From Panopea generosa (lineage: Eukaryota; Mollusca; Bivalvia; Adapedonta; Hiatellidae), in assembly GCA_029582155.1 (NCBI GenBank), contig CM055906.1:1-64000 (forward strand): a DNA stretch of 64,000 nucleotides, in the 5' to 3' direction. The position numbers and the translations under genes are program-made. Of this stretch, positions 13,692-64,000 are shown in pieces (within the stretch, counting starts at the first letter, position 1; every line of letters starts with the position of its first letter). The notes under the pieces are model-generated. The model was not told the DNA's origin and ran no database searches. It saw only the letters and a list, made by a program, of their open reading frames with translations.

Positions 13692-13695
13692 ATAC

Positions 13696-13954: not shown

Positions 13955-13958
13955 ATAC

Positions 13959-18784: not shown

Positions 18785-18802
18785 TCAATATACGTTTCCG
18801 TA

Positions 18803-19415: not shown

Positions 19416-19704
19416 TTCCATCACGTCTCAAAAAGGAACCCGGCAAACACCCACGCTTTTCTAGACCAGCCATCAACTGTATTATTAAATAAGCGTGAAC
19501 ATGTCTAAGAGTGAATGGCCTTTCATTGGAAACTCCCTTTAATATACCACTTGAGAATGTGTAAACGTTCAATTACTCCCGCGATATCACTTACTTTAGT
19601 TTCCAATTGAGGGAATTTGCTAGATATCGTACAGAATGATTGACATTCTACATTATTTCAAGTAATTTGCAGGCACACTTCTTGGATATACAATAGAATA
19701 TACA
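19416..19704. other. Sequence between foldback element and gap
   Basis: Single-copy-looking sequence with no feature recognised. It contains no satellite block, so the left border of the satellite lies inside the gap. Confidence 0.55.
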
Positions 19705-20204: not shown

Positions 20205-23200
20205 TCACAAACTAGCGACAACTGTTAATTTGATATAGAAGAATAATCGTTACATACAGGAACAGATGATTTGGCAAGCTAATTACAGTATGAATAAATA
20301 TCACATATCTCATCCTAATATAATGTCAGGTTTGCAACAAGTTTAAATCACAACACATACATTAACAGGAATGATTAACTGGAAAGAATAAATTATACTA
20401 TAACCTATAAAGTAGATTAAAACGTTCTCTACAGCCAGTAATTGATAAGCTCACTGCAGTATAAATAAATTATTAAAAGAGTATTAATGAAACTTAGAAG
20501 GTAACAAAATTATCAATCATCTGAATTAAAGTAGCAACAACTGTTAATTTGATATAGTAGAATAAACATTACATACAGGAACAGATGTTTTGGCAAGCTA
20601 ATTACAGTATGAATAAATATCACATATCTCATCCTAATATAATGTCAGCTTTGAAACAAGTTTAAATCACAACACATATATTAACAGGAATAATTAACTG
20701 GAAAGAATAAATTATACTATAACCTGTAAAGTAGATTAAAACATTCTATACAGCCAGTAATGTGGTGCGTCTTTCAGATGTAACCACACAACTGGATAAT
20801 TAATAAGCTCACTGCAGTATAAATAAATTATTAAGAGACTAAAATAATGAAGCTTTGAAGGTAACATAATTATAAATCATCTGAAATAAACTAGCGACAA
20901 CTGTTAATTTGATATAGTAGAATAATCGTTACATACAGGAACATGACTATTGAGTGTAATACTCTTTAGATTATGTATCACTTTCACTTGTTAGAATGTA
21001 TGAAACTCACAGTTCCATATACTTCTACAGTATGCAGTGCAAAGTCGATACCTGCAAGATTGACATCTTATCTGATGTATTGATAGTTGTACGATGGAGG
21101 AGTTTCATGGGCCAGGCTACCTCTTTCATCTACTGTTAGCTCAGATGTAGTTGTTCTTTCAAGCAGTCACTTTAATATGGTAATATGGGCTGGCTGGGAG
21201 CAATGTTATGAGCCAGGCCAAAGCTCCTTCAGCTGAACAAAACCTCGAAATTAATTTTGCTTTAATGACCTTTATTATTGGAGTATTTTACAAACCTATA
21301 CAATATAAAAAAAAGTGTATCTATATTACAGTGAATAAATATAACATATCTCATACTAATATAATCTCAGCTTTGAAACAAGTTTAAATCCTAACACATA
21401 CATTGATAGGAACGATTAACTGGAAAGAATAAAATATACTATAACCTATAAAGTAGATTCAAACATTCTATAGAGTCAGTAATGTGGTGCATCTTTCAGA
21501 TGTAACCATACAACAGCATAATTGGTAAGCTCACTGCAGTATAAATAAATTATAAAGAGACTAATACTGAAGCTTTGAAGGTAACATAATTATAAATCAT
21601 CTGAAATAAACTAGCGACAACTGTTAATTTGATATAGTAGAATAATCATACATACTACACAACAGCATAATTGATAAGCTCACTGCAGTATAAATAAATC
21701 ATTAAGGGACTAATAATGAAGCTTTGAAGGTAACATAATTATAAATCGTCTGAAATAAACCAGCGACAACTGTTAATTTGATATAGTAGAATAATCATAC
21801 ATACCAGACAACAGCATAATTGATAAGCTCACTGCAGTATAAATAAATTATTAAGGGACTAATATTGAAATTTTGAAGGTAACATAATTATGAAACACCT
21901 GAAATAAACTAGCGACAACTGTTAATTTGATATAGAAGAATAATCGTTACATACAGGAACAGATGATTTGGCAAGCTAATTACAGTATGAATAAATATCA
22001 CATATCTCATCCTAATATAATGTCAGGTTTGCAACAAGTTTAAATCACAACACATACATTAACAGGAATGATTAACTGGAAATTATAAATTATACTATAA
22101 CGTATAAAGTAGATTAAAACGTTCTCTACAGCCAGTAATTGATAAGCTCACTGCAGTATAAATAAATTATTAAAAGAGTAATAATGAAACTTAGAAGGTA
22201 ACAAAATTATCAATCATCTGAATTAAAGTAGCAACAACTGTTAATTTGATATAGTAGAATAAACATTACATACAGGAACAGATGTTTTGGCAAGCTAATT
22301 ACAGTATGAATAAATATCACATATCTCATCCTAATATAATGTCAGCTTTGAAACAAGTTTAAATCACAACACATATATTAACAGGAATAATTAACTGGAA
22401 AGAATAAATTATACTATAACCTGTAAAGTAGATTAAAACATTCTATACAGCCAGTAATGTGGTGCGTCTTTCAGATGTAACCACACAACTGGATAATTAA
22501 TAAGCTCACTGCAGTATAAATAAATTATTAAGAGACTAAAATAATGAAGCTTTGAAGGTAACATAATTATAAATCATCTGAAATAAACTAGCGACAACTG
22601 TTAATTTGATATAGTAGAATAATCGTTACATACAGGAACATGACTATTGAGTGTAATACTCTTTAGATTATGTATCACTTTCACTTGTTAGAATGTATGA
22701 AACTCAAAGTTCCATATATTTCTACAGTATGCAGTGCAAAGTCGATAACTGCAAGATTGACATCTTATCTGATGTATTGATAGTTGTATGACAGAGGTGT
22801 TCTAAGGGCCAGGCTACCTCTTTCATTTACTGTTAGCTCAGATGTAGTGGTTCTTTCAAGTAAATGATTTGGCAAGCTTATTATAGCATGAATAAATATC
22901 ACATATCTCATCCTAATATAATCTCAGCTTTGAAACAAGTTTAAATCACAACACATACATTAACAGGAATGATTAACTGGAAAGAATAAATTATACTATA
23001 ACCTATAAAGTAGATTAAAACGTTCTATACAGCCAGTAATTGATAAGCTCACTGCAGTATAAATAAATTATTAAAAGAGTAATAATGAAACTTAGAAGGT
23101 AACAAAATTATCAATCATCTGAATTAAAGTAGCAACAACTGTTAATTTGATATAGTAGAATAATCATACATACCAGACAACAGCATAATTGATAAGCTCA

Positions 23201-26200
23201 CTGCAGTATAAATAAATTATTAAGGGACTAATATTGACATTTTGAAGGTAACATAATTATGAAACACCTGAAATGAACTAGTGACAACTGTTAATTTGAT
23301 ATAGTAGAATAATTGTTACATATAGGAGCAGATGTTTTGTCAAGCTTATTACAGTATAAATAAATGTCACATATCTCATCCTAATATAACCTTAGCTTTG
23401 AAACAAGTTTAAATCACAAACTAGCGACAACTGTTAATTTGATATAGAAGAATAATCGTTACATACAGGAACAGATGATTTGGCAAGCTAATTACAGTAT
23501 GAATAAATATCACATATCTCATCCTAATATAATGTCAGGTTTGCAACAAGTTTAAATCACAACACATACATTAACAGGAATGATTAACTGGAAAGAATAA
23601 ATTATACTATAACCTATAAAGTAGATTAAAACGTTCTCTACAGCCAGTAATTGATAAGCTCACTGCAGTATAAATAAATTATTAAAAGAGTAATAATGAA
23701 ACTTAGAAGGTAACAAAATTATCAATCATCTGAATTAAAGTAGCAACAACTGTTAATTTGATATAGTAGAATAAACATTACATACAGGAACAGATGTTTT
23801 GGCAAGCTAATTACAGTATGAATAAATATCACATATCTCATCCTAATATAATGTCAGCTTTGAAACAAGTTTAAATCACAACACATATATTAACAGGAAT
23901 AATTAACTGGAAAGAATAAATTATACTATAACCTGTAAAGTAGATTAAAACATTCTATACAGCCAGTAATGTGGTGCGTCTTTCAGATGTAACCACACAA
24001 CTGGATAATTAATAAGCTCACTGCAGTATAAATAAATTATTAAGAGACTAAAATAATGAAGCATTGAAGGTAACATAATTATAAATCATCTGAAATAAAC
24101 TAGCGACAACTGTTAATTTGATATAGTAGAATAATCGTTACATACAGGAACATGACTATTGAGTGTAATACTCTTTAGATTATGTATCACTTTCACTTGT
24201 TAGAATGTATGAAACTCAAAGTTCCATATATTTCTACAGTATGCAGTGCAAAGTCGATAACTGCAAGATTGACATCTTATCTGATGTATTGATAGTTGTA
24301 TGACAGAGGTGTTCTAAGGGCCAGGCTACCTGTTTCATTTACTGTTAGCTCAGATGTAGTGGTTCTTTCAAGCAAATGATTTGGCAAGCTTATTATAGCA
24401 TGAATAAATATCACATATCTCATCCTAATATAATCTCAGCTTTGAAACAAGTTTAAATCACAACACATACATTAACAGGAATGATTAACTGGAAAGAATA
24501 AATTATACTATAACCTATAAAGTAGATTAAAACGTTCTATACAGCCAGTAATTGATAAGCTCACTGCAGTATAAATAAATTATTAAAAGAGTAATAATGA
24601 AACTTAGAAGGTAACAAAATTATCAATCATCTGAATTAAAGTAACAACAACTGTTCATTTGATATAGTAGAATAATCATACATACCAGACAACAGCATAA
24701 TTGATAAGCTCACTGCAGTATAAATAAATTATTAAGGGACTAATATTGACATTTTGAAGGTAACATAATTATGAAACACCTGAAATAAACTAGCGACAAC
24801 TGTTAATTTGATATAGAAGAATAATCGTTACATACAGGAACAGATGATTTGGCAAGCTAATTACAGTATGAATAAATATCACATATCTCATCCTAATATA
24901 ATGTCAGGTTTGCAACAAGTTTAAATCACAACACATACATTAACAGGAATGATTAACTGGAAAGAATAAATTATACTATAACCTATAAAGTAGATTAAAA
25001 CGTTCTCTACAGCCAGTAATTGATAAGCTCACTGCAGTATAAATAAATTATTAAAAGAGTAATAATGAAACTTAGAAGGTAACAAAATTATCAATCATCT
25101 GAATTAAAGTAGCAACAACTGTTAATTTGATATAGTAGAATAATCATACATACCAGACAACAGCATAATTGATAAGCTCACTGCAGTATAAATAAATTAT
25201 TAAGGGACTAATATTGACATTTTGAAGGTAACATAATTATAAATCATCTGAAATGAACTAGCGACAACTGTTAATTTGATATAGTAGAATAATCGTTACA
25301 TACAGGAACATGACTATTGAGTGTAATACTCTTTAGATTATGTATCACTTTCACTTGTTAGAATGTATGAAACTCACAGTTCCATATACTTCTACAGTAT
25401 GCAGTGCAAAGTCGATACCTGCAAGATTGACATCTTATCTGATGTATTGATAGTTGTACGACGGAGGAGTTTCATGGGCCAGGCTACCTCTTTCATCTAC
25501 TGTTAGCTCAGACGTAGTTGTTTTTTCAAGCAGTCACTTTAATATGGTAATATGGGCTGGCTGGGAGCAATGTTATGAGCCAGGCCAAAGCTCCTTCAGC
25601 TGAACAAAACCTCGAAATTAATTTTGCTTTAATGACCTTTATTATTGGAGTATTTTACAAACCTATACAATATAAAAAAAAGTGTATCTATATTACAGTG
25701 AATAAATATAACATATCTCATACTAATATAATCTCAGCTTTGAAACAAGTTTAAATCCTAACACATACATTGATAGGAACGATTAACTGGAAAGAATAAA
25801 ATATACTATAACCTATAAAGTAGATTCAAACATTCTATAGAGTCAGTAATGTGGTGCATCTTTCAGATGTAACCATACAACAGCATAATTGGTAAGCTCA
25901 CTGCAGTATAAATAAATTATAAAGAGACTAATACTGAAGCTTTGAAGGTAACATAATTATAAATCATCTGAAATAAACTAGCGACAACTGTTAATTTGAT
26001 ATAGTAGAATAATCATACATACTACACAACAGCATAATTGATAAGCTCACTGCAGTATAAATAAATCATTAAGGGACTAATAATGAAGCTTTGAAGGTAA
26101 CATAATTATAAATCGTCTGAAATAAACTAGCGACAACTGTTAATTTGATATAGTAGAATAATCATACATACCAGACAACAGCATAATTGATAAGCTCACT

Positions 26201-29200
26201 GCAGTATAAATAAATTATTAAGGGACTAATATTGAAATTTTGAAGGTAACATAATTATGAAACACCTGAAATAAACTAGCGACAACTGTTAATTTGATAT
26301 AGTAGAATAATTGTTACATATAGGAGCAGATGTTTTGTCAAGCTTATTACAGTATAAATAAATATCACATATCTCATCCTAATATAACCTTAGCTTTGAA
26401 ACAAGTTTTAATCACAAACTAGCGACAACTGTTAATTTGATATAGAAGAATAATCGTTACATACAGGAACAGATGATTTGGCAAGCTAATTACAGTATGA
26501 ATAAATATCACATATCTCATCCTAATATAATGTCAGGTTTGCAACAAGTTTAAATCACAACACATACATTAACAGGAATGATTAACTGGAAAGAATAAAT
26601 TATACTATAACCTATAAAGTAGATTAAAACGTTCTCTACAGCCAGTAATTGATAAGCTCACTGCAGTATAAATAAATTATTAAAAGAGTAATAATGAAAC
26701 TTAGAAGGTAACAAAATTATCAATCATCTGAATTAAAGTAGCAACAACTGTTAATTTGATATAGTAGAATAAACATTACATACAGGAACAGATGTTTTTG
26801 CAAGCTAATTACAGTATGAATAAATATCACATATCTCATCCTAATATAATGTCAGCTTTGAAACAAGTTTAAATCACAACACATATATTAACAGGAATAA
26901 TTAACTGGAAAGAATAAATTATACTATAACCTTTAAAGTAGATTAAAACATTCTATACAGCCAGTAATATGGTGCGTCTTTCAGATGTAACCACACAACT
27001 GGATAATTAATAAGCTCACTGCAGTATAAATAAATTATCAAGAGACTAAAATAATGAAGCTTTGAAGGTAACATAATTATAAATCATCTGAAATAAACTA
27101 GCGACAACTGTTAATTTGATATAGTAGAATAATCGTTACATACAGGAACATGACTATTGAGTGTAATACTCTTTAGATTATGTATCACTTTCACTTGTTA
27201 GAATGTATGAAACTCAAAGTTCCATATATTTCTACAGTATGCAGTGCAAAGTCGATAACTGCAAGATTGACATCTTATCTGATGTATTGATAGTTGTATG
27301 ACAGAGGTGTTCTAAGGGCCAGGCTACCTGTTTCATTTACTGTTAGCTCAGATGTAGTGGTTCTTTCAAGCAAATGATTTGGCAAGCTTATTATAGCATG
27401 AATAAATATCACATATCTCATCCTAATATAATCTCAGCTTTGAAACAAGTTTAAATCACAACACATACATTAACAGGAATGATTAACTGGAAAGAATAAA
27501 TTATACTATAACCTATAAAGTAGATTAAAACGTTCTATACAGCCAGTAATTGATAAGCTCACTGCAGTATAAATAAATTATTAAAAGAGTAATAATGAAA
27601 CTTAGAAGGTAACAAAATTATCAATCATCTGAATTAAAGTAGCAACAACTGTTAATTTGATATAGTAGAATAATCATACATACCAGACAACAGCATAATT
27701 GATAAGCTCACTGCAGTATAAATAAATTATTAAGGGACTAATATTGACATTTTGAAGGTAACATAATTATGAAACACCTGAAATAAACTAGCGACAACTG
27801 TTAATTTGATATAGTAGAATAATTGTTACATATAGGAGCAGATGTTTTGTCAAGCTTATTACAGTATAAATAAATATCACATATCTCATCCTAATATAAC
27901 CTTAGCTTTGAAACAAGTTTAAATCACAAACTAGCGACAACTGTTAATTTGATATAGAAGAATAATCGTTACATACAGGAACAGATGATTTGGCAAGCTA
28001 ATTACAGTATGAATAAATATCACATATCTCATCCTAATATAATGTCAGGTTTGCAACAAGTTTAAATCACAACACATACATTAACAGGAATGATTAACTG
28101 GAAAGAATAAATTATACTATAACCTATAAAGTAGATTAAAACGTTCTCTACAGCCAGTAATTGATAAGCTCACTGCAGTATAAATAAATTATTAAAAGAG
28201 TAATAATGAAACTTAGAAGGTAACAAAATTATCAATCATCTGAATTAAAGTAGCAACAACTGTTAATTTGATATAGTAGAATAAACATTACATACAGGAA
28301 CAGATGTTTTGGCAAGCTAATTACAGTATGAATAAATATCACATATCTCATCCTAATATAATGTCAGCTTTGAAACAAGTTTAAATCACAACACATATAT
28401 TAACAGGAATAATTAACTGGAAAGAATAAATTATACTATAACCTGTAAAGTAGATTAAAACATTCTATACAGCCAGTAATGTGGTGCGTCTTTCAGATGT
28501 AACCACACAACTGGATAATTAATAAGCTCACTGCAGTATAAATAAATTATTAAGAGACTAAAATAATGAAGCTTTGAAGGTAACATAATTATAAATCATC
28601 TGAAATAAACTAGCGACAACTGTTAATTTGATATAGTAGAATAATCGTTACATACAGGAACATGACTATTGAGTGTAATACTCTTTAGATTATGTATCAC
28701 TTTCACTTGTTAGAATGTATGAAACTCAAAGTTCCATATATTTCTACAGTATGCAGTGCAAAGTCGATAACTGCAAGATTGACATCTTATCTGATGTATT
28801 GATAGTTGTATGACAGAGGTGTTCTAAGGGCCAGGCTACCTCTTTCATTTACTGTTAGCTCAGATGTAGTGGTTCTTTCAAGCAAATGATTTGGCAAGCT
28901 TATTATAGCATGAATAAATATCACATATCTCATCCTAATATAATCTCAGCTTTGAAACAAGTTTAAATCACAACACATACATTAACAGGAATGATTAACT
29001 GGAAAGAATAAATTATACTATAACCTATAAAGTAGATTAAAACGTTCTATACAGCCAGTAATTGATAAGCTCACTGCAGTATAAATAAATTATTAAAAGA
29101 GTAATAATGAAACTTAGAAGGTAACAAAATTATCAATCATCTGAATTAAAGTAGCAACAACTGTTAATTTGATATAGTAGAATAATCATACATACCAGAC

Positions 29201-30783
29201 AACAGCATAATTGATAAGCTCACTGCAGTATAAATAAATTATTAAGGGACTAATATTGACATTTTGAAGGTAACATAATTATGAAACACCTGAAATGAAC
29301 TAGCGACAACTGTTAATTTGATATAGTAGAATAATTGTTACATATAGGAGCAGATGTTTTGTCAACCTTATTACAGTATAAATAAATGTCACATATCTCA
29401 TCCTAATATAACCTTAGCTTTGAAACAAGTTTAAATCACAAACTAGCGACAACTGTTAATTTGATATAGAAGAATAATCGTTACATACAGGAACAGATGA
29501 TTTGGCAAGCTAATTACAGTATGAATAAATATCACATATCTCATCCTAATATAATCTCAGCTTTGAAACAAGTTTAAATCACAACACATACATTAACAGG
29601 AATGATTAACTGGAAAGAATAAATTATACTATAACCTATAAAGTAGATTAAAACGTTCTATACAGCCAGTAATTGATAAGCTCACTGCAGTATAAATAAA
29701 TTATTAAAAGAGTAATAATGAAACTTAGAAGGTAACAAAATTATCAATCATCTGAATTAAAGTAGCAACAACTGTTAATTTGATATAGTAGAATAATCAT
29801 ACATACCAGACAACAGCATAATTGATAAGCTCACTGCAGTATAAATAAATTATTAAGGGACTAATATTGACATTTTGAAGGTAACATAATTATGAAACAC
29901 CTGAAATGAACTAGCGACAACTGTTAATTTGATATAGTAGAATAATTGTTACATATAGGAGCAGATGTTTTGTCAAGCTTATTACAGTATAAATAAATGT
30001 CACATATCTCATCCTAATATAACCTTAGCTTTGAAACAAGTTTAAATCACAAACTAGCGACAACTGTTAATTTGATATAGAAGAATAATCGTTACATACA
30101 GGAACAGATGATTTGGCAAGCTAATTACAGTATGAATAAATATCACATATCTCATCCTAATATAATGTCAGGTTTGCAACAAGTTTAAATCACAACACAT
30201 ACATTAACAGGAATGATTAACTGGAAAGAATAAATTATACTATAACCTATAAAGTAGATTAAAACGTTCTCTACAGCCAGTAATTGATAAGCTCACTGCA
30301 GTATAAATAAATTATTAAAAGAGTAATAATGAAACTTAGAAGGTAACAAAATTATCAATCATCTGAATTAAAGTAGCAACAACTGTTAATTTGATATAGT
30401 AGAATAAACATTACATACAGGAACAGATGTTTTGGCAAGCTAATTACAGTATGAATAAATATCACATATCTCATCCTAATATAATGTCAGCTTTGAAACA
30501 AGTTTAAATCACAACACATATATTAACAGGAATAATTAACTGGAAAGAATAAATTATACTATAACCTGTAAAGTAGATTAAAACATTCTATACAGCCAGT
30601 AATGTGGTGCGTCTTTCAGATGTAACCACACAACTGGATAATTAATAAGCTCACTGCAGTATAAATAAATTATTAAGAGACTAAAATAATGAAGCTTTGA
30701 AGGTAACATAATTATAAATCATCTGAAATAAACTAGCGACAACTGTTAATTTGATATAGTAGAATAATCGTTACATACAGGAA
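20205..30783. repeat. Satellite, left part with irregular block order
   Basis: Landmark spacings here are 1697, 1512, 1158, 1840, 1512 and 2123. Each can be written in the block alphabet: 1697 is S+M+M+q+P, 1512 is R+M+Q+P and 2123 is R+M+Q+M+Q+P. No 901-bp R+P unit occurs in this part. The mixed order suggests either an older, less homogenised flank or a region rearranged by repeated unequal exchange. Confidence 0.88.
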
Positions 30784-31369
30784 CATGACTATTGAGTGTA
30801 ATACTCTTTAGATTATGTATCACTTTCACTTGTTAGAATGTATGAAACTCACAGTTCCATATACTTCTACAGTATGCAGTGCAAAGTCGATACCTGCAAG
30901 ATTGACATCTTATCTGATGTATTGATAGTTGTACGACGGAGGAGTTTCATGGGCCAGGCTACCTCTTTCATCTACTGTTAGCTCAGATGTAGTTGTTTTT
31001 TCAAGCAGTCACTTTAATATGGTAATATGGGCTGGCTGGGAGCAATGTTATGAGCCAGGCCAAAGCTCCTTCAGCTGAACAAAACCTCGAAATTAATTTT
31101 GCTTTAATGACCTTTATTATTGGAGTATTTTACAAACCTATACAATATAAAAAAAAGTGTATCTATATTACAGTGAATAAATATAACATATCTCATACTA
31201 ATATAATCTCAGCTTTGAAACAAGTTTAAATCCTAACACATACATTGATAGGAACGATTAACTGGAAAGAATAAAATATACTATAACCTATAAAGTAGAT
31301 TCAAACATTCTATAGAGTCAGTAATGTGGTGCATCTTTCAGATGTAACCATACAACAGCATAATTGGTA
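30648..31369. repeat. Exemplar S block (722 bp)
   Basis: The longest block. After the shared head come the landmark segment (30784-31006), an S-only segment (31007-31173), the common 'aataaatataacatatctc...cagtaa' body and a tail resembling that of P. Ten S blocks occur in the window, with S-specific segments starting near 21165, 25540, 31007, 38253, 43697, 49141, 52783, 56425, 59166 and 62807. Confidence 0.9.
31007..31173. repeat. S-only segment of the satellite
   Basis: About 167 bases found only in S blocks, from agtcactttaatatggtaat to ctatattacag, including gggctggctgggagc and gagccaggccaaagctcc. It is more G-rich than the rest and has no counterpart in R, so it was either inserted into an S ancestor or lost from R. 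No coding frame or transposon end was seen. Confidence 0.8.
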
Positions 31370-31518
31370 AGCTCACTGCAGTATAAATAAATTATAAAGA
31401 GACTAATACTGAAGCTTTGAAGGTAACATAATTATAAATCATCTGAAATAAACTAGCGACAACTGTTAATTTGATATAGTAGAATAATCATACATACTAC
31501 ACAACAGCATAATTGATA

Positions 31519-31667
31519 AGCTCACTGCAGTATAAATAAATCATTAAGGGACTAATAATGAAGCTTTGAAGGTAACATAATTATAAATCGTCTGAAATAA
31601 ACTAGCGACAACTGTTAATTTGATATAGTAGAATAATCATACATACCAGACAACAGCATAATTGATA
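31519..31667. repeat. Exemplar M block (149 bp)
   Basis: The smallest block: the shared head of about 118 bases plus a 30-base tail (catacataccagacaacag and cataattgata). M usually occurs in pairs inside the 1840-bp unit. It is the simplest candidate for the ancestral monomer. Confidence 0.88.
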
Positions 31668-32129
31668 AGCTCACTGCAGTATAAATAAATTATTAAGGGA
31701 CTAATATTGAAATTTTGAAGGTAACATAATTATGAAACACCCGAAATAAACTAGCGACAACTGTTAATTTGATATAGTAGAATAATTGTTACATATAGGA
31801 GCAGATGTTTTGTCAAGCTTATTACAGTATAAATAAATATCACATATCTCATCCTAATATAACCTTAGCTTTGAAACAAGTTTAAATCACAAACTAGCGA
31901 CAACTGTTAGTTTGATATAGAAGAATAATCGTTACATACAGGAACAGATGATTTGGCAAGCTAATTACAGTATGAATAAATATCACATATCTCATCCTAA
32001 TATAATGTCAGGTTTGCAACAAGTTTAAATCACAACACATACATTAACAGGAATGATTAACTGGAAAGAATAAATTATACTATAACCTATAAAGTAGATT
32101 AAAACGTTCTCTACAGCCAGTAATAGATA
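31668..32129. repeat. Exemplar Q block (462 bp)
   Basis: Shared head, then a partial body (tgttacataggagc-like start through ttagctttgaaacaag), then an internal return to the last part of the head (actagcgacaactgttaatt), then a full body ending ctctacagccagtaatagat. The internal return makes Q 143 bases longer than q (319), which lacks it, so Q and q differ by one internal duplication or deletion. Confidence 0.85.
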
Positions 32130-32487
32130 AGCTCACTGCAGTATAAATAAATTATTAAAAGAGTAATAATGAAACTTAGAAGGTAACAAAATTATCAATC
32201 ATCTGAATTAAAGTAGCAACAACTGTTAATTTGATATAGTAGAATAAACATTACATACAGGAACAGATGTTTTGGCAAGCTAATTACAGTATGAATAAAT
32301 ATCACATATCTCATCCTAATATAATGTCAGCTTTGAAACAAGTTTAAATCACAACACATATATTAACAGGAATAATTAACTGGAAAGAATAAATTATACT
32401 ATAACCTGTAAAGTAGATTAAAACATTCTATACAGCCAGTAATGTGGTGCGTCTTTCAGATGTAACCACACAACTGGATAATTAATA

Positions 32488-48917: not shown

Positions 48918-51900
48918 CATGACTATTGAGTGTAATACTCTTTAGATTATGTATCACTTTCACTTGTTAGAATGTATGAAACTCACAGTTCCATATACTT
49001 CTACAGTATGCAGTGCAAAGTAGATACCTGCAAGATTGACATCTTATCTGATGTATTGATAGTTGTACGACGGAGGAGTTTCATGGGCCAGGCTACCTCT
49101 TTCATCTACTGTTAGCTCAGATGTAGTGGTTCTTTCAAGCAGTCACTTTAATATGGTAATATGGGCTGGCTGGGAGCAATGTTATGAGCCAGGCCAAAGC
49201 TCCTTCAGCTGAACAAAACCTCGAAATTAATTTTGCTTTAATGACCTTTATTATTGGAGTATTTTACAAACCTATACAATATAAAAAAAAGTGTATCTAT
49301 ATTACAGTGAATAAATATAACATATCTCGTACTAATATAATCTCAGCTTTGAAACAAGTTTAAATCCTAACACATACATTGATAGGATCGATTAACTGGA
49401 AAGAATAAAATATACTATAACCTATAAAGTAGATTCAAACATTCTATAGAGTCAGTAATGTGGTGCATCTTTCAGATGTAACCATACAACAGCATAATTG
49501 GAAAGCTCACTGCAGTATAAATAAATTATAAAGAGACTAATACTGAAGCTTTGAAGGTAACATAATTATAAATCATCTGAAATAAACTAGCGACAACTGT
49601 TAATTTGATATAGTAGAATAATCATACATACTACACAACAGCATAATTGATAAGCTCACTGCAGTATAAATAAATCATTAAGGGACTAATAATGAAGCTT
49701 TGAAGGTAACATAATTATAAATCGTCTGAAATAAACTAGCGACAACTGTTAATTTGATATAGTAGAATAATCATACATACCAGACAACAGCATAATTGAT
49801 AAGCTCACTGCAGTATAAATGAATTATTAAGGGACTAATATTGAAATTTTGAAGGTAACATAATTATGAAACACCCGAAATAAACTAGTGACAACTGTTA
49901 ATTTGATATAGTAGAATAATTGTTACATATAGGAGCAGATGTTTTGTCAAGCTTATTACAGTATAAATAAATATCACATATCTCATCCTAATATAACCTT
50001 AGCTTTGAAACAAGTTTAAATCACAAACTAGCGACAACTGTTAATTTGATATAGAAGAATAATCGTTACATACAGGAACAGATGATTTGGCAAGCTAATT
50101 ACAGTATGAATAAATATCACATATCTCATCCTAATATAATGTCAGGTTTGCAACAAGTTTAAATCACAACACATACATTAACAGGAATGATTAACTGGAA
50201 AGAATAAATTATACTATAACCTATAAAGTAGATTAAAACGTTCTCTACAGCAAGTAATAGATAAGCTCACTGCAGTATAAATAAATTATTAAAAGAGTAA
50301 TAATGAAACTTAGAAGGTAACAAAATTATCAATCATCTGAATTAAAGTAGCAACAACTGTTAATTTGATATAGTAGAATAAACATTACATACAGGAACAG
50401 ATGTTTTGGCAAGCTAATTACAGTATGAATAAATATCACATATCTCATCCTAATATAATGTCAGCTTTGAAACAAGTTTAAATCACAACACATATATTAA
50501 CAGGAATAATTAACTGGAAAGAATAAATTATACTATAACCTGTAAAGTAGATTAAAACATTCTATACAGCCAGTAATGTGGTGCGTCTTTCAGATGTAAC
50601 CACACAACTGGATAATTAATAAGCTCACTGCAGTATAAATAAATTATTAAGAGACTAAAATAATGAAGCTTTGAAGGTAACATAATTATAAATCATCTGA
50701 AATAAACTAGCGACAACTGTTAATTTGATATAGTAGAATAATCGTTACATACAGGAACATGACTATTGAGTGTAATACTCTTTAGATTATGTATCACTTT
50801 CACTTGTTAGAATGTATGAAACTCACAGTTCCATATATTTCTACAGTATGCAGAGCAAAGTCGATACCTGCAAGATTGACATCTTATCTGATGTATTGAT
50901 AGTTGTATGACAGAGGTGTTCTAAGGGCCAGGCTACCTCTTTCATTTACTGTTAGCTCAGATGTAGTGGTTCTTTCAAGCAAATGATTTGGCAAGCTTAT
51001 TATAGCATGAATAAATATCACATATCTCATCCTAATATAATCTCAGCTTTGAAACAAGTTTAAATCACAACACATACATTAACAGGAATGATTAACTGGA
51101 AAGAATAAATTATACTATAACCTATAAAGTAGATTAAAACGTTCTATACAGCCAGTAATTGATAAGCTCACTGCAGTATAAATAAATTATTAAAAGAGTA
51201 ATAATGAAACTTAGAAGGTAACAAAATTATCAATCATCTGAATTAAAGTAGCAACAACTGTTAATTTGATATAGTAGAATAAACATTACATACAGGAACA
51301 GATGTTTTGGCAAGCTAATTACAGTATGAATAAATATCACATATCTCATCCTAATATAATGTCAGCTTTGAAACAAGTTTAAATCACAACACATATATTA
51401 ACAGGAATAATTAACTGGAAAGAATAAATTATACTATAACCTGTAAAGTAGATTAAAACATTCTATACAGCCAGTAATGTGGTGCGTCTTTCAGATGTAA
51501 CCACACAACTGGATAATTAATAAGCTCACTGCAGTATAAATAAATTATTAAGAGACTAAAATAATGAAGCTTTGAAGGTAACATAATTATAAATCATCTG
51601 AAATAAACTAGCGACAACTGTTAATTTGATATAGTAGAATAATCGTTACATACAGGAACATGACTATTGAGTGTAATACTCTTTAGATTATGTATCACTT
51701 TCACTTGTTAGAATGTATGAAACTCACAGTTCCATATATTTCTACAGTATGCAGAGCAAAGTCGATACCTGCAAGATTGACATCTTATCTGATGTATTGA
51801 TAGTTGTATGACAGAGGTGTTCTAAGGGCCAGGCTACCTCTTTCATTTACTGTTAGCTCAGATGTAGTGGTTCTTTCAAGCAAATGATTTGGCAAGCTTA

Positions 51901-54900
51901 TTATAGCATGAATAAATATCACATATCTCATCCTAATATAATCTCAGCTTTGAAACAAGTTTAAATCACAACACATACATTAACAGGAATGATTAACTGG
52001 AAAGAATAAATTATACTATAACCTATAAAGTAGATTAAAACGTTCTCTACAGCCAGTAATTGATAAGCTCACTGCAGTATAAATAAATTATTAAAAGAGT
52101 AATAATGAAACTTAGAAGGTAACAAAATTATCAATCATCTGAATTAAAGTAGCAACAACTGTTAATTTGATATAGTAGAATAAACATTACATACAGGAAC
52201 AGATGTTTTGGCAAGCTAATTACAGTATGAATAAATATCACATATCTCATCCTAATATAATGTCAGCTTTGAAACAAGTTTAAATCACAACACATATATT
52301 AACAGGAATAATTAACTGGAAAGAATAAATTATACTATAACCTGTAAAGTAGATTAAAACATTCTATACAGCCAGTAATGTGGTGCGTCTTTCAGATGTA
52401 ACCACACAACTGGATAATTAATAAGCTCACTGCAGTATAAATAAATTATTAAGAGACTAAAATAATGAAGCTTTGAAGGTAACATAATTATAAATCATCT
52501 GAAATAAACTAGCGACAACTGTTAATTTGATATAGTAGAATAATCGTTACATACAGGAACATGACTATTGAGTGTAATACTCTTTAGATTATGTATCACT
52601 TTCACTTGTTAGAATGTATGAAACTCACAGTTCCATATACTTCTACAGTATGCAGTGCAAAGTAGATACCTGCAAGATTGACATCTTATCTGATGTATTG
52701 ATAGTTGTACGACGGAGGAGTTTCATGGGCCAGGCTACCTCTTTCATCTACTGTTAGCTCAGATGTAGTGGTTCTTTCAAGCAGTCACTTTAATATGGTA
52801 ATATGGGCTGGCTGGGAGCAATGTTATGAGCCAGGCCAAAGCTCCTTCAGCTGAACAAAACCTCGAAATTAATTTTGCTTTAATGACCTTTATTATTGGA
52901 GTATTTTACAAACCTATACAATATAAAAAAAAGTGTATCTATATTACAGTGAATAAATATAACATATCTCGTACTAATATAATCTCAGCTTTGAAACAAG
53001 TTTAAATCCTAACACATACATTGATAGGATCGATTAACTGGAAAGAATAAAATATACTATAACCTATAAAGTAGATTCAAACATTCTATAGAGTCAGTAA
53101 TGTGGTGCATCTTTCAGATGTAACCATACAACAGCATAATTGGTAAGCTCACTGCAGTATAAATAAATTATAAAGAGACTAATACTGAAGCTTTGAAGGT
53201 AACATAATTATAAATCATCTGAAATAAACTAGCGACAACTGTTAATTTGATATAGTAGAATAATCATACATACTACACAACAGCATAATTGATAAGCTCA
53301 CTGCAGTATAAATAAATCATTAAGGGACTAATAATGAAGCTTTGAAGGTAACATAATTATAAATCGTCTGAAATAAACTAGCGACAACTGTTAATTTGAT
53401 ATAGTAGAATAATCATACATACCAGACAACAGCATAATTGATAAGCTCACTGCAGTATAAATAAATTATTAAGGGACTAATATTGAAATTTTGAAGGTAA
53501 CATAATTATGAAACACCCGAAATAAACTAGCGACAACTGTTAATTTGATAGAGTAGAATAATTGTTACATATAGGAGCAGATGTTTTGTCAAGCTTATTA
53601 CAGTATAAATAAATATCACATATCTCATCCTAATATAACCTTAGCTTTGAAACAAGTTTAAATCACAAACTAGCGACAACTGTTAATTTGATATAGAAGA
53701 ATAATCGTTACATACAGGAACAGATGATTTGGCAAGCTAATTACAGTATGAATAAATATCACATATCTCATCCTAATATAATGTCAGGTTTGCAACAAGT
53801 TTAAATCACAACACATACATTAACAGGAATGATTAACTGGAAAGAATAAATTATACTATAACCTATAAAGTAGATTAAAACGTTCTCTACAGCCAGTAAT
53901 AGATAAGCTCACTGCAGTATAAATAAATTATTAAAAGAGTAATAATGAAACTTAGAAGGTAACAAAATTATCAATCATCTGAATTAAAGTAGCAACAACT
54001 GTTAATTTGATATAGTAGAATAAACATTACATACAGGAACAGATGTTTTGGCAAGCTAATTACAGTATGAATAAATATCACATATCTCATCCTAATATAA
54101 TGTCAGCTTTGAAACAAGTTTAAATCACAACACATATATTAACAGGAATAATTAACTGGAAAGAATAAATTATACTATAACCTGTAAAGTAGATTAAAAC
54201 ATTCTATACAGCCAGTAATGTGGTGCGTCTTTCAGATGTAACCACACAACTGGATAATTAATAAGCTCACTGCAGTATAAATAAATTATTAAGAGACTAA
54301 AATAATGAAGCTTTGAAGGTAACATAATTATAAATCATCTGAAATAAACTAGCGACAACTGTTAATTTGATATAGTAGAATAATCGTTACATACAGGAAC
54401 ATGACTATTGAGTGTAATACTCTTTAGATTATGTATCACTTTCACTTGTTAGAATGTATGAAACTCACAGTTCCATATATTTCTACAGTATGCAGAGCAA
54501 AGTCGATACCTGCAAGATTGACATCTTATCTGATGTATTGATAGTTGTATGACAGAGGTGTTCTAAGGGCCAGGCTACCTCTTTCATTTACTGTTAGCTC
54601 AGATGTAGTGGTTCTTTCAAGCAAATGATTTGGCAAGCTTATTATAGCATGAATTAATATCACATATCTCATCCTAATATAATCTCAGCTTTGAAACAAG
54701 TTTAAATCACAACACATACATTAACAGGAATGATTAACTGGAAAGAATAAATTATACTATAACCTATAAAGTAGATTAAAACGTTCTATACAGCCAGTAA
54801 TTGATAAGCTCACTGCAGTATAAATAAATTATTAAAAGAGTAATAATGAAACTTAGAAGGTAACAAAATTATCAATCATCTGAATTAAAGTAGCAACAAC

Positions 54901-57900
54901 TGTTAATTTGATATAGTAGAATAAACATTACATACAGGAACAGATGTTTTGGCAAGCTAATTACAGTATGAATAAATATCACATATCTCATCCTAATATA
55001 ATGTCAGCTTTGAAACAAGTTTAAATCACAACACATATATTAACAGGAATAATTAACTGGAAAGAATAAATTATACTATAACCTGTAAAGTAGATTAAAA
55101 CATTCTATACAGCCAGTAATGTGGTGCGTCTTTCAGATGTAACCACACAACTGGATAATTAATAAGCTCACTGCAGTATAAATAAATTATTAAGAGACTA
55201 AAATAATGAAGCTTTGAAGGTAACATAATTATAAATCATCTGAAATAAACTAGCGACAACTGTTAATTTGATATAGTAGAATAATCGTTACATACAGGAA
55301 CATGACTATTGAGTGTAATACTCTTTAGATTATGTATCACTTTCACTTGTTAGAATGTATGAAACTCACAGTTCCATATATTTCTACAGTATGCAGAGCA
55401 AAGTCGATACCTGCAAGATTGACATCTTATCTGATGTATTGATAGTTGTATGACAGAGGTGTTCTAAGGGCCAGGCTACCTCTTTCATTTACTGTTAGCT
55501 CAGATGTAGTGGTTCTTTCAAGCAAATGATTTGGCAAGCTTATTATAGCATGAATAAATATCACATATCTCATCCTAATATAATCTCAGCTTTGAAACAA
55601 GTTTAAATCACAACACATACATTAACAGGAATGATTAACTGGAAAGAATAAATTATACTATAACCTATAAAGTAGATTAAAACGTTCTCTACAGCCAGTA
55701 ATTGATAAGCTCACTGCAGTATAAATAAATTATTAAAAGAGTAATAATGAAACTTAGAAGGTAACAAAATTATCAATCATCTGAATTAAAGTAGCAACAA
55801 CTGTTAATTTGATATAGTAGAATAAACATTACATACAGGAACAGATGTTTTGGCAAGCTAATTACAGTATGAATAAATATCACATATCTCATCCTAATAT
55901 AATGTCAGCTTTGAAACAAGTTTAAATCACAACACATATATTAACAGGAATAATTAACTGGAAAGAATAAATTATACTATAACCTGTAAAGTAGATTAAA
56001 ACATTCTATACAGCCAGTAATGTGGTGCGTCTTTCAGATGTAACCACACAACTGGATAATTAATAAGCTCACTGCAGTATAAATAAATTATTAAGAGACT
56101 AAAATAATGAAGCTTTGAAGGTAACATAATTATAAATCATCTGAAATAAACTAGCGACAACTGTTAATTTGATATAGTAGAATAATCGTTACATACAGGA
56201 ACATGACTATTGAGTGTAATACTCTTTAGATTATGTATCACTTTCACTTGTTAGAATGTATGAAACTCACAGTTCCATATACTTCTACAGTATGCAGTGC
56301 AAAGTCGATACCTGCAAGATTGACATCTTATTTGATGTATTGATAGTTGTACGACGGAGGAGTTTCATGGGCCAGGCTACCTCTTTCATCTACTGTTAGC
56401 TCAGATGTAGTTGTTCTTTCAAGCAGTCACTTTAATATGGTAATATGGGCTGGCTGGGAGCAATGTTATGAGCCAGGCCAAAGCTCCTTCAGCTGAACAA
56501 AACCTCGAAATTAATTTTGCTTTAATGACCTTTATTATTGGAGTATTTTACAAACCTATACAATATAAAAAAAAGTGTATCTATATTACAGTGAATAAAT
56601 ATAATATATCTCATACTAATATAATCTCAGCTTTGAAACAAGTTTAAATCCTAACACATACATTGATAGGAACGATTAACTGGAAAGAATAAAATATACT
56701 ATAACCTATAAAGTAGATTCAAACATTCTATAGAGTCAGTAATGTGGTGCATCTTTCAGATGTAACCATACAACAGCATAATTGGTAAGCTCACTGCAGT
56801 ATCAATAAATTATAAAGAGACTAATACTGAAGCTTTGAAGGTAACATAATTATAAATCATCTGAAATAAACTAGCGACAACTGTAAATTTGATATAGTAG
56901 AATAATCATACATACTACACAACAGCATAATTGATAAGCTCACTGCAGTATAAATAAATCATTAAGGGACTAATAATGAAGCTTTGAAGGTAACATAATT
57001 ATAAATCGTCTGAAATAAACTAGCGACAACTGTTAATTTGATATAGTAGAATAATCATACATACCAGACAACAGCATAATTGATAAGCTCACTGCAGTAT
57101 AAATAAATTATTAAGGGACTAATATTGAAATTTTGAAGGTAACATAATTATGAAACACCTGAAATAAACTAGCGACAACTGTTAATTTGATATAGTAGAA
57201 TAATTGTTACATATAGGAGCAGATGTTTTGTCAAGCTTATTACAGTATAAATAAATATCACATATCTCATCCTAATATAACCTTAGCTTTGAAACAAGTT
57301 TAAATCACAAACTAGCGACAACTGTTAATTTGATATAGAAGAATAATCGTTACATACAGGAACAGATGATTTGGCAAGCTAATTACAGTATGAATAAATA
57401 TCACATATCTCATCCTAATATAATGTCAGGTTTGCAACAAGTTTAAATCACAACACATACATTAACAGGAATGATTAACTGGAAAGAATAAATTATACTA
57501 TAACCTATAAAGTAGATTAAAACGTTCTCTACAGCCAGTAATAGATAAGCTCACTGCAGTATAAATAAATTATTAAAAGAGTAATAATGAAACTTAGAAG
57601 GTAACAAAATTATCAATCATCTGAATTAAAGTAGCAACAACTGTTAATTTGATATAGTAGAATAAACATTACATACAGGAACAGATGTTTTGGCAAGCTA
57701 ATTACAGTATGAATAAATATCACATATCTCATCCTAATATAATGTCAGCTTTGAAACAAGTTTAAATCACAACACATATATTAACAGGAATAATTAACTG
57801 GAAAGAATAAATTATACTATAACCTGTAAAGTAGATTAAAACATTCTATACAGCCAGTAATGTGGTGCGTCTTTCAGATGTAACCACACAACTGGATAAT

Positions 57901-60900
57901 TAATAAGCTCACTGCAGTATAAATAAATTATTAAGAGACTAAAATAATGAAGCTTTGAAGGTAACATAATTATAAATCATCTGAAATAAACTAGCGACAA
58001 CTGTTAATTTGATATAGTAGAATAATCGTTACATACAGGAACATGACTATTGAGTGTAATACTCTTTAGATTATGTATCACTTTCACTTGTTAGAATGTA
58101 TGAAACTCACAGTTCCATATATTTCTACAGTATGCAGAGCAAAGTCGATACCTGCAAGATTGACATCTTATCTGATGTATTGATAGTTGTATGACAGAGG
58201 TGTTCTAAGGGCCAGGCTACCTCTTTCATTTACTGTTAGCTCAGATGTAGTGGTTCTTTCAAGCAAATGATTTGGCAAGCTTATTATAGCATGAATAAAT
58301 ATCACATATCTCATCCTAATATAATCTCAGCTTTGAAACAAGTTTAAATCACAACACATACATTAACAGGAATGATTAACTGGAAAGAATAAATTATACT
58401 ATAACCTATAAAGTAGATTAAAACGTTCTCTACAGCCAGTAATTGATAAGCTCACTGCAGTATAAATAAATTATTAAAAGAGTAATAATGAAACTTAGAA
58501 GGTAACAAAATTATCAATCATCTGAATTAAAGTAGCAACAACTGTTAATTTGATATAGTAGAATAAACATTACATACAGGAACAGATGTTTTGGCAAGCT
58601 AATTACAGTATGAATAAATATCACATATCTCATCCTAATATAATGTCAGCTTTGAAACAAGTTTAAATCACAACACATATATTAACAGGAATAATTAACT
58701 GGAAAGAATAAATTATACTATAACCTGTAAAGTAGATTAAAACATTCTATACAGCCAGTAATGTTGTGCGTCTTTCAGATGTTACCACACAACTGGATAA
58801 TTAATAAGCTCACTGCAGTATAAATAAATTATTAAGAGACTAAAATAATGAAGCTTTGAAGGTAACATAATTATAAATCATCTGAAATAAACTAGCGACA
58901 ACTGTTAATTTGATATAGTAGAATAATCGTTACATACAGGAACATGACTATTGAGTGTAATACTCTTTAGATTATGTATCACTTTCACTTGTTAGAATGT
59001 ATGAAACTCACAGTTCCATATACTTCTACGGTATGCAGTGCAAAGTCGATACCTGCAAGATTGACATCTTATCTGATGTATTGATAGTTGTACGACGGAG
59101 GAGTTTCATGGGCCAGGCTACCTCTTTCATCTACTGTTAGCTCAGATGTAGTTGTTCTTTCAAGCAGTCACTTTAATATGGTAATATGGGCTGGCTGGGA
59201 GCAATGTTATGAGCCAGGCCAAAGCTCCTTCAGCTGAACAAAACCTCGAAATTAATTTTGCTTTAATGACCTTTATTATTGGAGTATTTTACAAACCTAT
59301 ACAATATAAAAAAAAGTGTATCTATATTACAGTGAATAAATATAACATATCTCGTACTAATATAATCTCAGCTTTGAAACAAGTTTAAATCCTAACACAT
59401 ACATTGATAGGATCGATTAACTGGAAAGAATAAAATATACTATAACCTATAAAGTAGATTCAAACATTCTATAGAGTCAGTAATGTGGTGCATCTTTCAG
59501 ATGTAACCATACAACAGCATAATTGGTAAGCTCACTGCAGTATAAATAAATTATAAAGAGACTAATACTGAAGCTTTGAAGGTAACATAATTATAAATCA
59601 TCTGAAATAAACTAGCGACAACTGTTAATTTGATATAGTAGAATAATCATACATACTACACAACAGCATAATTGATAAGCTCACTGCAGTATAAATAAAT
59701 CATTAAGGGACTAATAATGAAGCTTTGAAGGTAACATAATTATAAATCGTCTGAAATAAACTAGCGACAACTGTTAATTTGATATAGTAGAATAATCATA
59801 CATACCAGACAACAGCATAATTGATAAGCTCACTGCAGTATAAATAAATTATTAAGGGACTAATATTGAAATTTTGAAGGTAACATAATTATGAAACCCC
59901 GAAATAAACTAGCGACAACTGTTAATTTGATATAGTAGAATAATTGTTACATATAGGAGCAGATGTTTTGTCAAGCTTATTACAGTATAAATAAATATCA
60001 CATATCTCATCCTAATATAACCTTAGCTTTGAAACAAGTTTAAATCACAAACTAGCAACAACTGTTAATTTGATATAGAAGAATAATCGTTACATACAGG
60101 AACAGATGATTTGGCAAGCTAATTACAGTATGAATAAATATCACATATCTCATCCTAATATAATGTCAGGTTTGCAACAAGTTTAAATCACAACACATAC
60201 ATTAACAGGAATGATTAACTGGAAAGAATAAATTATACTATAACCTATAAAGTAGATTAAAACGTTCTCTACAGCCAGTAATAGATAAGCTCACTGCAGT
60301 ATAAATAAATTATTAAAAGAGTAATAATGAAACTTAGAAGGTAACAAAATTATCAATCATCTGAATTAAAGTAGCAACAACTGTTAATTTGATATAGTAG
60401 AATAAACATTACATACAGGAACAGATGTTTTGGCAAGCTAATTACAGTATGAATAAATATCACATATCTCATCCTAATATAATGTCAGCTTTGAAACAAG
60501 TTTAAATCACAACACATATATTAACAGGAATAATTAACTGGAAAGAATAAATTATACTATAACCTGTAAAGTAGATTAAAACATTCTATACAGCCAGCAA
60601 TGTGGTGCGTCTTTCAGATGTAACCACACAACTGGATAATTAATAAGCTCACTGCAGTATAAATAAATTATTAAGAGACTAAAATAATGAAGCTTTGAAG
60701 GTAACATAATTATAAATCATCTGAAATAAACTAGCGACAACTGTTAATTTGATATAGTAGAATAATCGTTACATACAGGAACATGACTATTGAGTGTAAT
60801 ACTCTTTAGATTATGTATCACTTTCACTTGTTAGAATGTATGAAACTCACAGTTCCATATATTTCTACAGTATGCAGAGCAAAGTCGATACCTGCAAGAT

Positions 60901-63318
60901 TGACATCTTATCTGATGTATTGATAGTTGTATGACAGAGGTGTTCTAAGGGCCAGGCTACCTCTTTCATTTACTGTTAGCTCAGATGTAGTGGTTCTTTC
61001 AAGCAAATGATTTGGCAAGCTTATTATAGCATGAATAAATATCACATATCTCATCCTAATATAATCTCAGCTTTGAAACAAGTTTAAATCACAACACATA
61101 CATTAACAGGAATGATTAACTGGAAAGAATAAATTATACTATAACCTATAAAGTAGATTAAAACGTTCTCTACAGCCAGTAATAGATAAGCTCACTGCAG
61201 TATAAATAAATTATTAAAAGAGTAATAATGAAACTTAGAAGGTAACAAAATTATCAATCATCTGAATTAAAGTAGCAACAACTGTTAATTTGATATAGTA
61301 GAATAAACATTACATACAGGAACAGATGTTTTGGCAAGCTAATTACAGTATGAATAAATATCACATATCTCATCCTAATATAATGTCAGCTTTGAAACAA
61401 GTTTAAATCACAACACATATATTAACAGGAATAATTAACTGGAAAGAATAAATTATACTATAACCTGTAAAGTAGATTAAAACATTCTATACAGCCAGTA
61501 ATGTGGTGCGTCTTTCAGATGTAACCACACAACTGGATAATTAATAAGCTCACTGCAGTATAAATAAATTATTAAGAGACTAAAATAATGAAGCTTTGAA
61601 GGTAACATAATTATAAATCATCTGAAATAAACTAGCGACAACTGTTAATTTGATATAGTAGAATAATCGTTACATACAGGAACATGACTATTGAGTGTAA
61701 TACTCTTTAGATTATGTATCACTTTCACTTGTTAGAATGTATGAAACTCACAGTTCCATATTTTTCTACAGTATGCAGAGCAAAGTCGATACCTGCAAGA
61801 TTGACATCTTATCTGATGTATTGATAGTTGTATGACAGAGGTGTTCTAAGGGCCAGGCTACCTCTTTCATTTACTGTTAGCTCAGATGTAGTGGTTCTTT
61901 CAAGCAAATGATTTGGCAAGCTTATTATAGCATGAATAAATATCACATATCTCATCCTAATATAATCTCAGCTTTGAAACAAGTTTAAATCACAACACAT
62001 ACATTAACAGGAATGATTAACTGGAAAGAATAAATTATACTATAACCTATAAAGTAGATTAAAACGTTCTATACAGCCAGTAATTGATAAGCTCACTGCA
62101 GTATAAATAAATTATTAAAAGAGTAATAATGAAACTTAGAAGGTAACAAAATTATCAATCATCTGAATTAAAGTAGCAACAACTGTTAATTTGATATAGT
62201 AGAATAAACATTACATACAGGAACAGATGTTTTGGCAAGCTAATTACAGTATGAATAAATATCACATATCTCATCCTAATATAATGTCAGCTTTGAAACA
62301 AGTTTAAATCACAACACATATATTAACAGGAATAATTAACTGGAAAGAATAAATTATACTATAACCTGTAAAGTAGATTAAAACATTCTATACAGCCAGT
62401 AATGTGGTGCGTCTTTCAGATGTAACCACACAACTGGATAATTAATAAGCTCACTGCAGTATAAATAAATTATTAAGAGACTAAAATAATGAAGCTTTGA
62501 AGGTAACATAATTATAAATCATCTGAAATAAACTAGCGACAACTGTTAATTTGATATAGTAGAATAATCGTTACATACAGGAACATGACTATTGAGTGTA
62601 ATACTCTTTAGATTATGTATCACTTTCACTTGTTAGAATGTATGAAACTCACAGTTCCATATACTTCTACAGTATGCAGTGCAAAGTCGATACCTGCAAG
62701 ATTGACATCTTATCTGATGTATTGATAGTTGTACGACGGAGGAGTTTCATGGGCCAGGCTACCTCTTTCATCTACTGTTAGCTCAGATGTAGTTGTTCTT
62801 TCAAGCAGTCACTTTAATATGGTAATATGGGCTGGCTGGGAGCAATGTTATGAGCCAGGCCAAAGCTCCTTCAGCTGAACAAAACCTCGAAATTAATTTT
62901 GCTTTAATGACCTTTATTATTGGAGTATTTTACAAACCTATACAATATAAAAAAAAGTGTATCTATATTACAGTGAATAAATATAACATATCTCATACTA
63001 ATATAATCTCAGCTTTGAAACAAGTTTAAATCCTAACACATACATTGATAGGATCGATTAACTGGAAAGAATAAAATATACTATAACCTATAAAGTAGAT
63101 TCAAACATTCTATAGAGTCAGTAATGTGGTGCATCTTTCAGATGTAACCATACAACAGCATAATTGGTAAGCTCACTGCAGTATAAATAAATTATAAAGA
63201 GACTAATACTGAAGCTTTGAAGGTAACATAATTATAAATCATCTGAAATAAACTAGCGACAACTGTTAATTTGATATAGTAGAATAATCATACATACTAC
63301 ACAACAGCATAATTGATA

Positions 63319-64000
63319 AGCTCACTGCAGTATAAATAAATCATTAAGAGACTAATAATGAAGCTTTGAAGGTAACATAATTATAAATCGTCTGAAATAA
63401 ACTAGCGACAACTGTTAATTTGATATAGAAGAATAATCGTTACATACAGGAACAGATGATTTGGCAAGCTAATTAAAGTATGAATAAATATCACATATCT
63501 CATCCTAATGTAATGTCAGGTTTGCAACAAGTTTAAATCACAACACATACATTAACAGGAATGATTAACTGGAAAGAATAAATTATACTATAACCTATCA
63601 AGTAGATTAAAACGTTCTATACAGCCAGTAATTGATAAGCTCACTGCAGTATAAATAAATTATTAAAAGAGTAATAATGAAACTTAGAAGGTAACAAAAT
63701 TATCAATCATCTGAATTAAAGTAGCAACAACTGTTAATTTGATATAGTAGAATAAACATTACATACAGGAACAGATGTTTTGGCAAGCTAATTACAGTAT
63801 GAATAAATATCACGTATCTCATCCAAATATAATGTCAGCTTTGAAACAAGTTTAAATCACAACACATATATTAACAGGAATAATTAACTGTCAAGAATAA
63901 ATTATACTATAACCTGTAAAGTAGATTAAAACATTCTATACAGCCAGTAATGTGGTGCGTCTTTCAGATGTAACCACACAACTGGATAATTAATAAGCTC
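63319..64000. repeat. Right-end satellite blocks with extra substitutions
   Basis: After S and a single M (instead of two), a q block (63319-63637) and a P block follow up to the window edge. They carry changes not seen elsewhere: aattaaagta, cctaatgtaatg, cctatcaag, cacgtatctc, catccaaat and aactgtcaagaat. This is far above the density inside the array. Confidence 0.8.

Follow-up and report, generated by a model that had tools for sequence, protein, structure and literature searches.

The first 64,000 nucleotides of contig CM055906.1 (here C13) in the genome assembly of the bivalve Panopea generosa (GCA_029582155.1; 1.474 Gb in 39 contigs), hereafter the window (C13:1-64000), contain a tandem array whose blocks differ in length and begin with the same head, which raises the question of how such blocks came to be ordered into repeating units of several blocks each. 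The answer reached here is that the array is likely to be a higher-order satellite, non-coding and low in copy number, which unequal exchange within the shared head has shaped, and that its modules are shared with dispersed, probably mobile-element-like sequence elsewhere in the genome.

The array comprises about 49 kb of non-coding animal DNA in a single orientation from position 20,205 on. An earlier note on this DNA had placed it at 20205..64000; the start agrees, but the array continues beyond the window, and in the fetched neighbouring DNA it was followed to C13:69431, where the final copy of the shared head (the A head) is interrupted after ~36 bp. The whole array consists of 123 complete blocks bounded by 124 A heads. 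Measured head to head, 109 blocks lie in the window, of which 107 are exactly 358 bp (P, 34 blocks), 543 bp (R, 25), 149 bp (M, 25), 462 bp (Q, 11), 722 bp (S, 9) or 319 bp (q, 3) long. The earlier note had assigned every block to these six lengths under one head, and the head is indeed common to all, with one block of 461 bp (a Q) and one of 720 bp (named s) departing from the six lengths. No A head was found on the minus strand with a 32-base pattern allowing up to seven substitutions, and the array has no minus-strand match to itself at E 1e-3, by which an inverted array was rejected.

The block lengths, together with autocorrelation peaks at 901, 5444, 3642, 4543 and 1802 bp, rule out a plain monomeric satellite. 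The main units in the window are RP (901 bp, 21 copies) and SMMQP (1840 bp, six copies, and one of 1839 bp), the letters giving the blocks in order. Rarer units are RMQP (1512 bp, two copies) and single copies of SMMqP (1697 bp), RMQMQP (2123 bp), RMqM (1160 bp), sMMQP (1838 bp) and a cut SMq. The block parse thus contains all of the unit lengths that had been claimed before (901, 1840, 1512, 1697 and 2123 bp), and adds 1160, 1838 and 1839 bp, one copy each. From the left, the order reads PSMMqPRMQPRMqMsMMQPRMQPRMQMQP, followed by seven SMMQP units, each with a run of RP, and by SMq at the window edge. A further level is seen in the RP runs, which after successive SMMQP units number 6, 4, 4, 2, 2, 1 and 2 copies. 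Block order and copy number are those of the assembly.

The six blocks had been taken as the basic alphabet of the array; they are, however, composed of the modules A, B, i, D1 and D2 together with a single B/A chimera, M being a deletion form and Q a duplication form (Table 1). M, which is A carrying the end of i, had likewise been described as a single block and resolves into three position-specific subtypes, Ma, Mb and Mg. A and B are weakly alike: of 1000 dinucleotide shuffles, 0 reached the global alignment score of the pair taken from P and 3 that of the pair taken from Q; for the local score the counts were 11 and 2 of 1000, respectively, and a first local test with plain shuffles gave 16 of 500. 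A relationship of D to A or B was rejected, as no likeness was detectable (z between − 0.9 and 1.0). One copy of the i module (20756-20804) folds as DNA with z − 1.97, with 9 of 200 shuffles as good. The array contains no closed stop-to-stop frame of at least 70 amino acids, the five listed frames all crossing the gap of N at its left, and a coding repeat was accordingly discarded. A known structured RNA or transfer RNA was discarded as well, no Rfam match at gathering score and no transfer RNA being found within the window. A 24-base pattern from the A head has no exact match in the viral and prokaryote contig collections.

The evidence that the units, rather than the single monomers, have been multiplied comes from the identities at the two levels. 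Within the window, the mean identity is 0.9978 among the 34 P blocks, 0.9965 among the 25 R blocks and 0.9955 among the nine S blocks, and because 274 of the 561 pairs of P blocks are identical along all 358 bp, the array is not due to chance. Over the full array, the 23 RP units of 901 bp have a mean identity of 0.9971 (minimum 0.9800) and the six SMMQP units of 1840 bp one of 0.9961. In contrast, the A subtypes of P, R/S, Q, Ma and Mb are 87.4–96.3% identical to one another, R and S having one common A and the A of Mg being P-like (99.3%). Since copies of a unit are ~99.6–99.7% identical while the A subtypes within a unit are far more diverged, the array is a higher-order repeat (HOR), with near-identical multi-monomer units arranged head to tail in one orientation and with no long open frame. 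The homogeneity is not uniform along the array, which shows a homogeneous core and a diverged edge, although only one true edge is seen. Changes in P, R and S blocks amount to 4.68 per kb in the left zone (12 blocks), 1.47 in the core (56 blocks) and 11.73 at the right edge (10 blocks), a contrast that is exaggerated because the consensus was built from window blocks, mostly those of the core. The R blocks of the left zone have their own shared variants, and indels are very rare.

A probable trace of exchange between block types is preserved in mosaic blocks, which were sought by scoring 28 diagnostic columns in the 123 blocks. While 114 blocks match their own type or subtype, the 720-bp s block carries a Q-type head on an S body and is read as the product of an exchange inside the shared A head. 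All six Mg blocks have a P-type left half, with a right half tied between P and Ma; the q block at 63309 is of Mb type on the left and of R/S type on the right, each half showing a single difference, and a diverged R block splits weakly between types. In addition, the differences between R blocks rise with distance, from a mean of 0.64 below 1 kb to 3.67 above 16 kb (351 pairs, which are not independent). In the mechanism that most likely gave rise to the block order, copies would mispair out of register through the A head of ~110–150 bp (and through B), so that unequal exchange or conversion could trade block bodies, gain or lose RP units and homogenise the core. Foreign modules would have been inserted into some of the monomers, and each locus, or group of exchanging loci, would reach a block order of its own.

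Table 1. Features of the array and its surroundings in the window (lengths in bp; 20205 is the first base after the gap)
Feature	Position	Strand	Detail
Modular higher-order array	20205..64000, on past window to C13:69431	+	Autocorrelation, head mapping, fetched neighbour DNA
Left zone	20205..32119	+	Mixed units 1697, 1512, 1160, 1838, 1512, 2123, 1840
Core zone	32120..63308	+	RP (901) runs of 1 to 6 between SMMQP (1840)
Right edge zone, start	63309..64000 (zone to 69431, past window)	+	
S block, 722	20796..21517	+	A + D1 + D2 + shortened B + i
D module in S block	20943..21320	+	D1 223 + D2 155
M block, Ma	21518..21666	+	First after S
M block, Mb	21667..21815	+	Second after S
q block, 319	21816..22134	+	A + B; Q minus the 143-bp chimera
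P block, 358	22135..22492	+	A (148) + B (171) + i (39)
i module, 39	22454..22492	+	Imperfect inverted repeat TGTGGT/ACCACA
R block, 543	22493..23035	+	A + D1 + B
M block, Mg	23036..23184	+	P-type first half of A head, M length and tail
Q block, 462	23185..23646	+	A + B/A chimera (143) + B
s block, 720	25165..25884	+	Q-type head on S body; 0 differences to Q (left half), 0 to R/S (right half)
SMMQP example (S-Ma-Mb-Q-P), 1840	30638..32477	+	Unit parse
RP example, 901	32478..33378	+	Unit parse
500-N scaffold gap	19705..20204	.	Divides array piece from unique DNA at left

Relatives of the modules were sought in the whole assembly by pattern searches allowing at most three mismatches, for which the reversed-pattern controls gave 0 matches each. 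The A head has 466 matches (315 forward, 151 reverse) and the start of D has 132 (86 forward, 46 reverse), which over 1.47 Gb falls short of an abundant satellite, although an assembly may under-represent satellites. For both patterns the listing covers the first 100 places, all of them exact matches taken contig by contig as far as C20, and further contigs may carry more. The D starts among these are on C12 (30), C13 (38), C16 (7) and C20 (25), and the A heads among these are on C2, C12, C13, C16 and C20. Relatives on C2 and C20 were also obtained with a 496-bp DNA query, in a search that skips very common words and that leaves the array itself unlisted. The DNA was then read over 20 kb on C12, 10 kb on C16 (343 of them N), 11 kb on C20 (two pieces outside the stretch where most of its D starts lie), 8 kb on C11 and two 5-kb pieces on C2.

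In the pieces on C12, C16 and C20, A is 185 bp long and contains an internal duplication of 35 bp, and the D starts are spaced ~897 and 1320 bp apart, with an additional 677 bp on C12, giving units of ~2.22 kb and, on C12, also of ~2.9 kb. Other spacings are 1510 and 1462 bp on C16 and a variable series on C20. C12 is 97.8% identical to C16 along 5.8 kb and 98.2% identical to C20 along 4.5 kb, whereas C13 is 76–88% identical to these three in the best long stretches. The junction within R is nearly confined to the C13 array, with 28 of 29 matches there and one on C11 (a complete list), yet the fetched parts of C12, C16 and C20 share the ~2.2-kb order. In a tree of A copies (62 rows, 56 of them different, 100 columns), C13 needs five label changes (mean of the shuffles 18.1, with 0 of 500 as low), so its rows are clustered but do not form one clade, and the rows of C12, C16 and C20 intermix. 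We conclude that a sister group of arrays adopted another order of the same modules. Tentatively, and with some reserve, it may further be proposed that one set of modules, borne by a mobile-element-like sequence, crystallised separately into two higher-order grammars, namely RP/SMMQP with a 149-bp A on C13 and ~2.2-/2.9-kb units with a 185-bp A on C12, C16 and C20. A run of N starts inside the C16 array, from 4499658, and the C16 array may therefore extend further. C11 holds a lone 175-bp fragment (C11:19888524-19888698), which consists of the end of D1 and most of B at 96% identity to C13, with no other modules nearby.

The source of the modules is addressed by their surroundings. The same ~1.2-kb non-array sequence precedes the modules on C12, C20 and C2 (99.7% identical between C12 and C20, 90–91% for C2, where it has a ~430-bp insertion), and it begins at the same point (GTCTTTTTTCTACAAGG) on C2 and on C12/C20 in different surroundings, suggesting a mobile-element source, which is plausible though unproven. 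One explanation carries this further and regards each array as the central repeat, enlarged in situ once inserted, of a non-autonomous Helitron/Helentron-like element as in the oyster HINEs. This explanation is compatible with the exchange-driven history preferred here, and the shared left flank, the relatives of the D2 end inside that flank and the oyster elements of such a design in the part of the literature available (PMC7492417) are in its favour. However, since the agreement of C12 with C20 extends past the left boundary, they represent a single insertion, duplicated or allelic, which leaves two independent sites for the left flank. Moreover, no common right module with a 3′ palindrome is evident at the five right ends compared by eye (C13, two on C20 and two on C2), and C13:1-264000 contains no match to the whole length of the flank. 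This explanation is possible but rather doubtful. A different tandem array with periods of 211 and 419 bp (C2:73063001-73064979) directly abuts the C2 module copy. For the exon beyond the right end, a hAT-like identity was considered and finds no Pfam support.

Several of these observations also count against the reading of the array as a low-copy higher-order satellite with a mobile-element-like source, shaped by unequal exchange. The one left flank in two independent surroundings, and the five right ends without a common module, limit the case for the source, and the tree of A copies leaves 30 of its 53 inner branches open, with near-copies sufficient by themselves to cluster the labels. The non-independence of the pairs weakens the distance test of the R blocks, the core-weighted consensus inflates the contrast between zones, and the right end is the only true edge of the array, its left end being a scaffold gap. 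Finally, block order and copy number depend on an assembly whose pieces were seemingly cut and rejoined.

A second explanation takes the array to be a centromeric or pericentromeric satellite, part of a functional centromere whose role maintains the order of the blocks, as in active alpha satellite. The monomers, at 149, 171 and 185 bp, come close to the size of a nucleosome, the core is homogeneous and the right edge diverged, and a 17-base motif with 7 of the 9 specified bases of the CENP-B box occurs at three sites in the non-redundant unit, a number attained in 0 of 60 shuffles (mean 0.47). However, the three sites represent a single motif that recurs with its module, no site reaches 8/9 or 9/9, and the 466 A heads make few copies, although an assembly can under-represent satellites. 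The position at the start of C13 is uninformative because the array lies among pieces of round size. A full CENP-B box was rejected for the array, its best site having 7/9 bases and all 56 hits being one motif, and the spacing of AA/TT/TA gave no clean 10-bp series there. We infer that the array plays no part in coding and that any role it has would be in chromatin; a centromere or heterochromatin function is possible, while a role in a functional centromere as the cause of the block order appears unlikely.

That the block order or copy number was made by the assembler or by scaffold editing is very improbable. In its favour are the size of the array's own piece, exactly 51,000 bp between two gaps of 500 N, and the round sizes of three other complete pieces. 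Against it, M, Q, R and S have variants specific to position that carry the order, indels are very rare, and C12 and C16 agree along 5.8 kb at 97.8%, an agreement that supports the modules and not the C13 order itself. C13:19705-252204 holds five such gaps, and the four complete pieces between gaps in C13:1-264000, whose sizes were obtained by subtracting gap positions, are 51000 (that of the array), 27000, 130000 and 22000 bp long, all of them multiples of 1,000 bp; the first piece of C13, at 19,704 bp, is not round. We read the round sizes as cuts at binned coordinates during scaffold editing. The position of the array at a chromosome end is therefore not to be trusted, and because of the gap and the cut pieces, the DNA at 1-19704 is not established as a neighbour of the array.

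The DNA left of the gap has a single match to the array, of 25 bp at E 0.21. This piece, which need not adjoin the array, holds an animal-like thrombospondin type 1 exon; four related stretches at 11123-14983 (68–84% pairwise identity), one of them with the thrombospondin type 1 domain, are probably tandemly duplicated exons. At 1-405 (to about 584) of the window lies a tandem repeat of period 136 with three copies at 97%, truncated by the start of C13 and followed by a degraded continuation. Eight minus-strand matches to this 136-bp repeat occur at C13:169120-197849 in four pairs spaced 9417 bp apart, a recurrence that suggests a long-period tandem duplication. A CAAT tetranucleotide run of 39.5 copies is found at 1906-2062.

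HORs are usually studied as huge centromeric arrays in which the origin is erased, whereas here the parts, the short relatives and two orders are present in one assembly. Models of HOR birth that invoke unequal exchange within a common segment, the insertion of foreign modules and decay at the edge are thus directly testable here. If the proposal of two grammars is true, these would constitute a natural replicate of an alpha-satellite-type HOR origin, observed while the copy number is low and likely progenitors can still be recognised. The array is also an example of how a seeming chromosome-end location on an edited scaffold piece is not trustworthy.

Primate alpha satellite consists of monomers of ~150–185 bp in near-identical multi-monomer units, with a diverged edge and unit types restricted to particular loci. 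The C13 array resembles alpha-satellite HORs in its monomer size, its near-identical units of diverged monomers, its diverged edge and perhaps its locus-restricted units (a comparison that draws in part on the available portion of PMC3694981), and it differs from them in having non-monomer modules (D, i), few copies and no full CENP-B box. The likeness to alpha satellite asserted in the earlier note thus appears fair for the architecture, given the unit identity against the divergence of A subtypes and the diverged right edge, but the array is not shown to be abundant, with 466 A heads; no relation in sequence is claimed.

Comparable systems exist outside the primates. Meloidogyne nematodes have complex satellite HORs of divergent monomers, and in the available part of that study the monomers are joined at short conserved boxes, for which its authors proposed transposition-like cut-and-paste or illegitimate recombination (PMC3694981). 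The C13 array is likewise a HOR of divergent monomers in a non-primate, but its blocks have one long head in common, and what distinguishes them are inserts, deletions and a duplication. The central repeats of the oyster HINE/Helentron elements are mostly 140–180 bp long, and their arrays hold a single repeat type or, exceptionally, two, and no more than 29.3 monomers, as given in the consulted sections (PMC7492417). They are similar to the P. generosa modules in repeat size, in their short dispersed arrays and in the link to flanking element modules; in contrast, the C13 array is 49 kb long and two-level, and a right module with a 3′ palindrome is not shown for it. The repeat Ac4p1 of the scallop Adamussium colbecki is a mollusc unit with subrepeats, of ~726 bp and with a variable subrepeat number, for which HOR formation was discussed; it is likened here by description only, and the portion of the paper considered describes no two-level ordered array (PMC5874043). 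Nothing matching the C13 array is contained in the accessible parts of a golden mussel satellite paper (PMC12818792) and of a review (PMC12692304), and a literature search that covered papers without their supplements and without a eukaryote repeat library yielded no paper recognised as describing it. HORs outside primates (PMC3694981) and satellite-like repeats borne by mobile elements in bivalves (PMC7492417) were thus already known, as far as these sources extend, and what distinguishes the C13 array among them is a history that is unusually readable.

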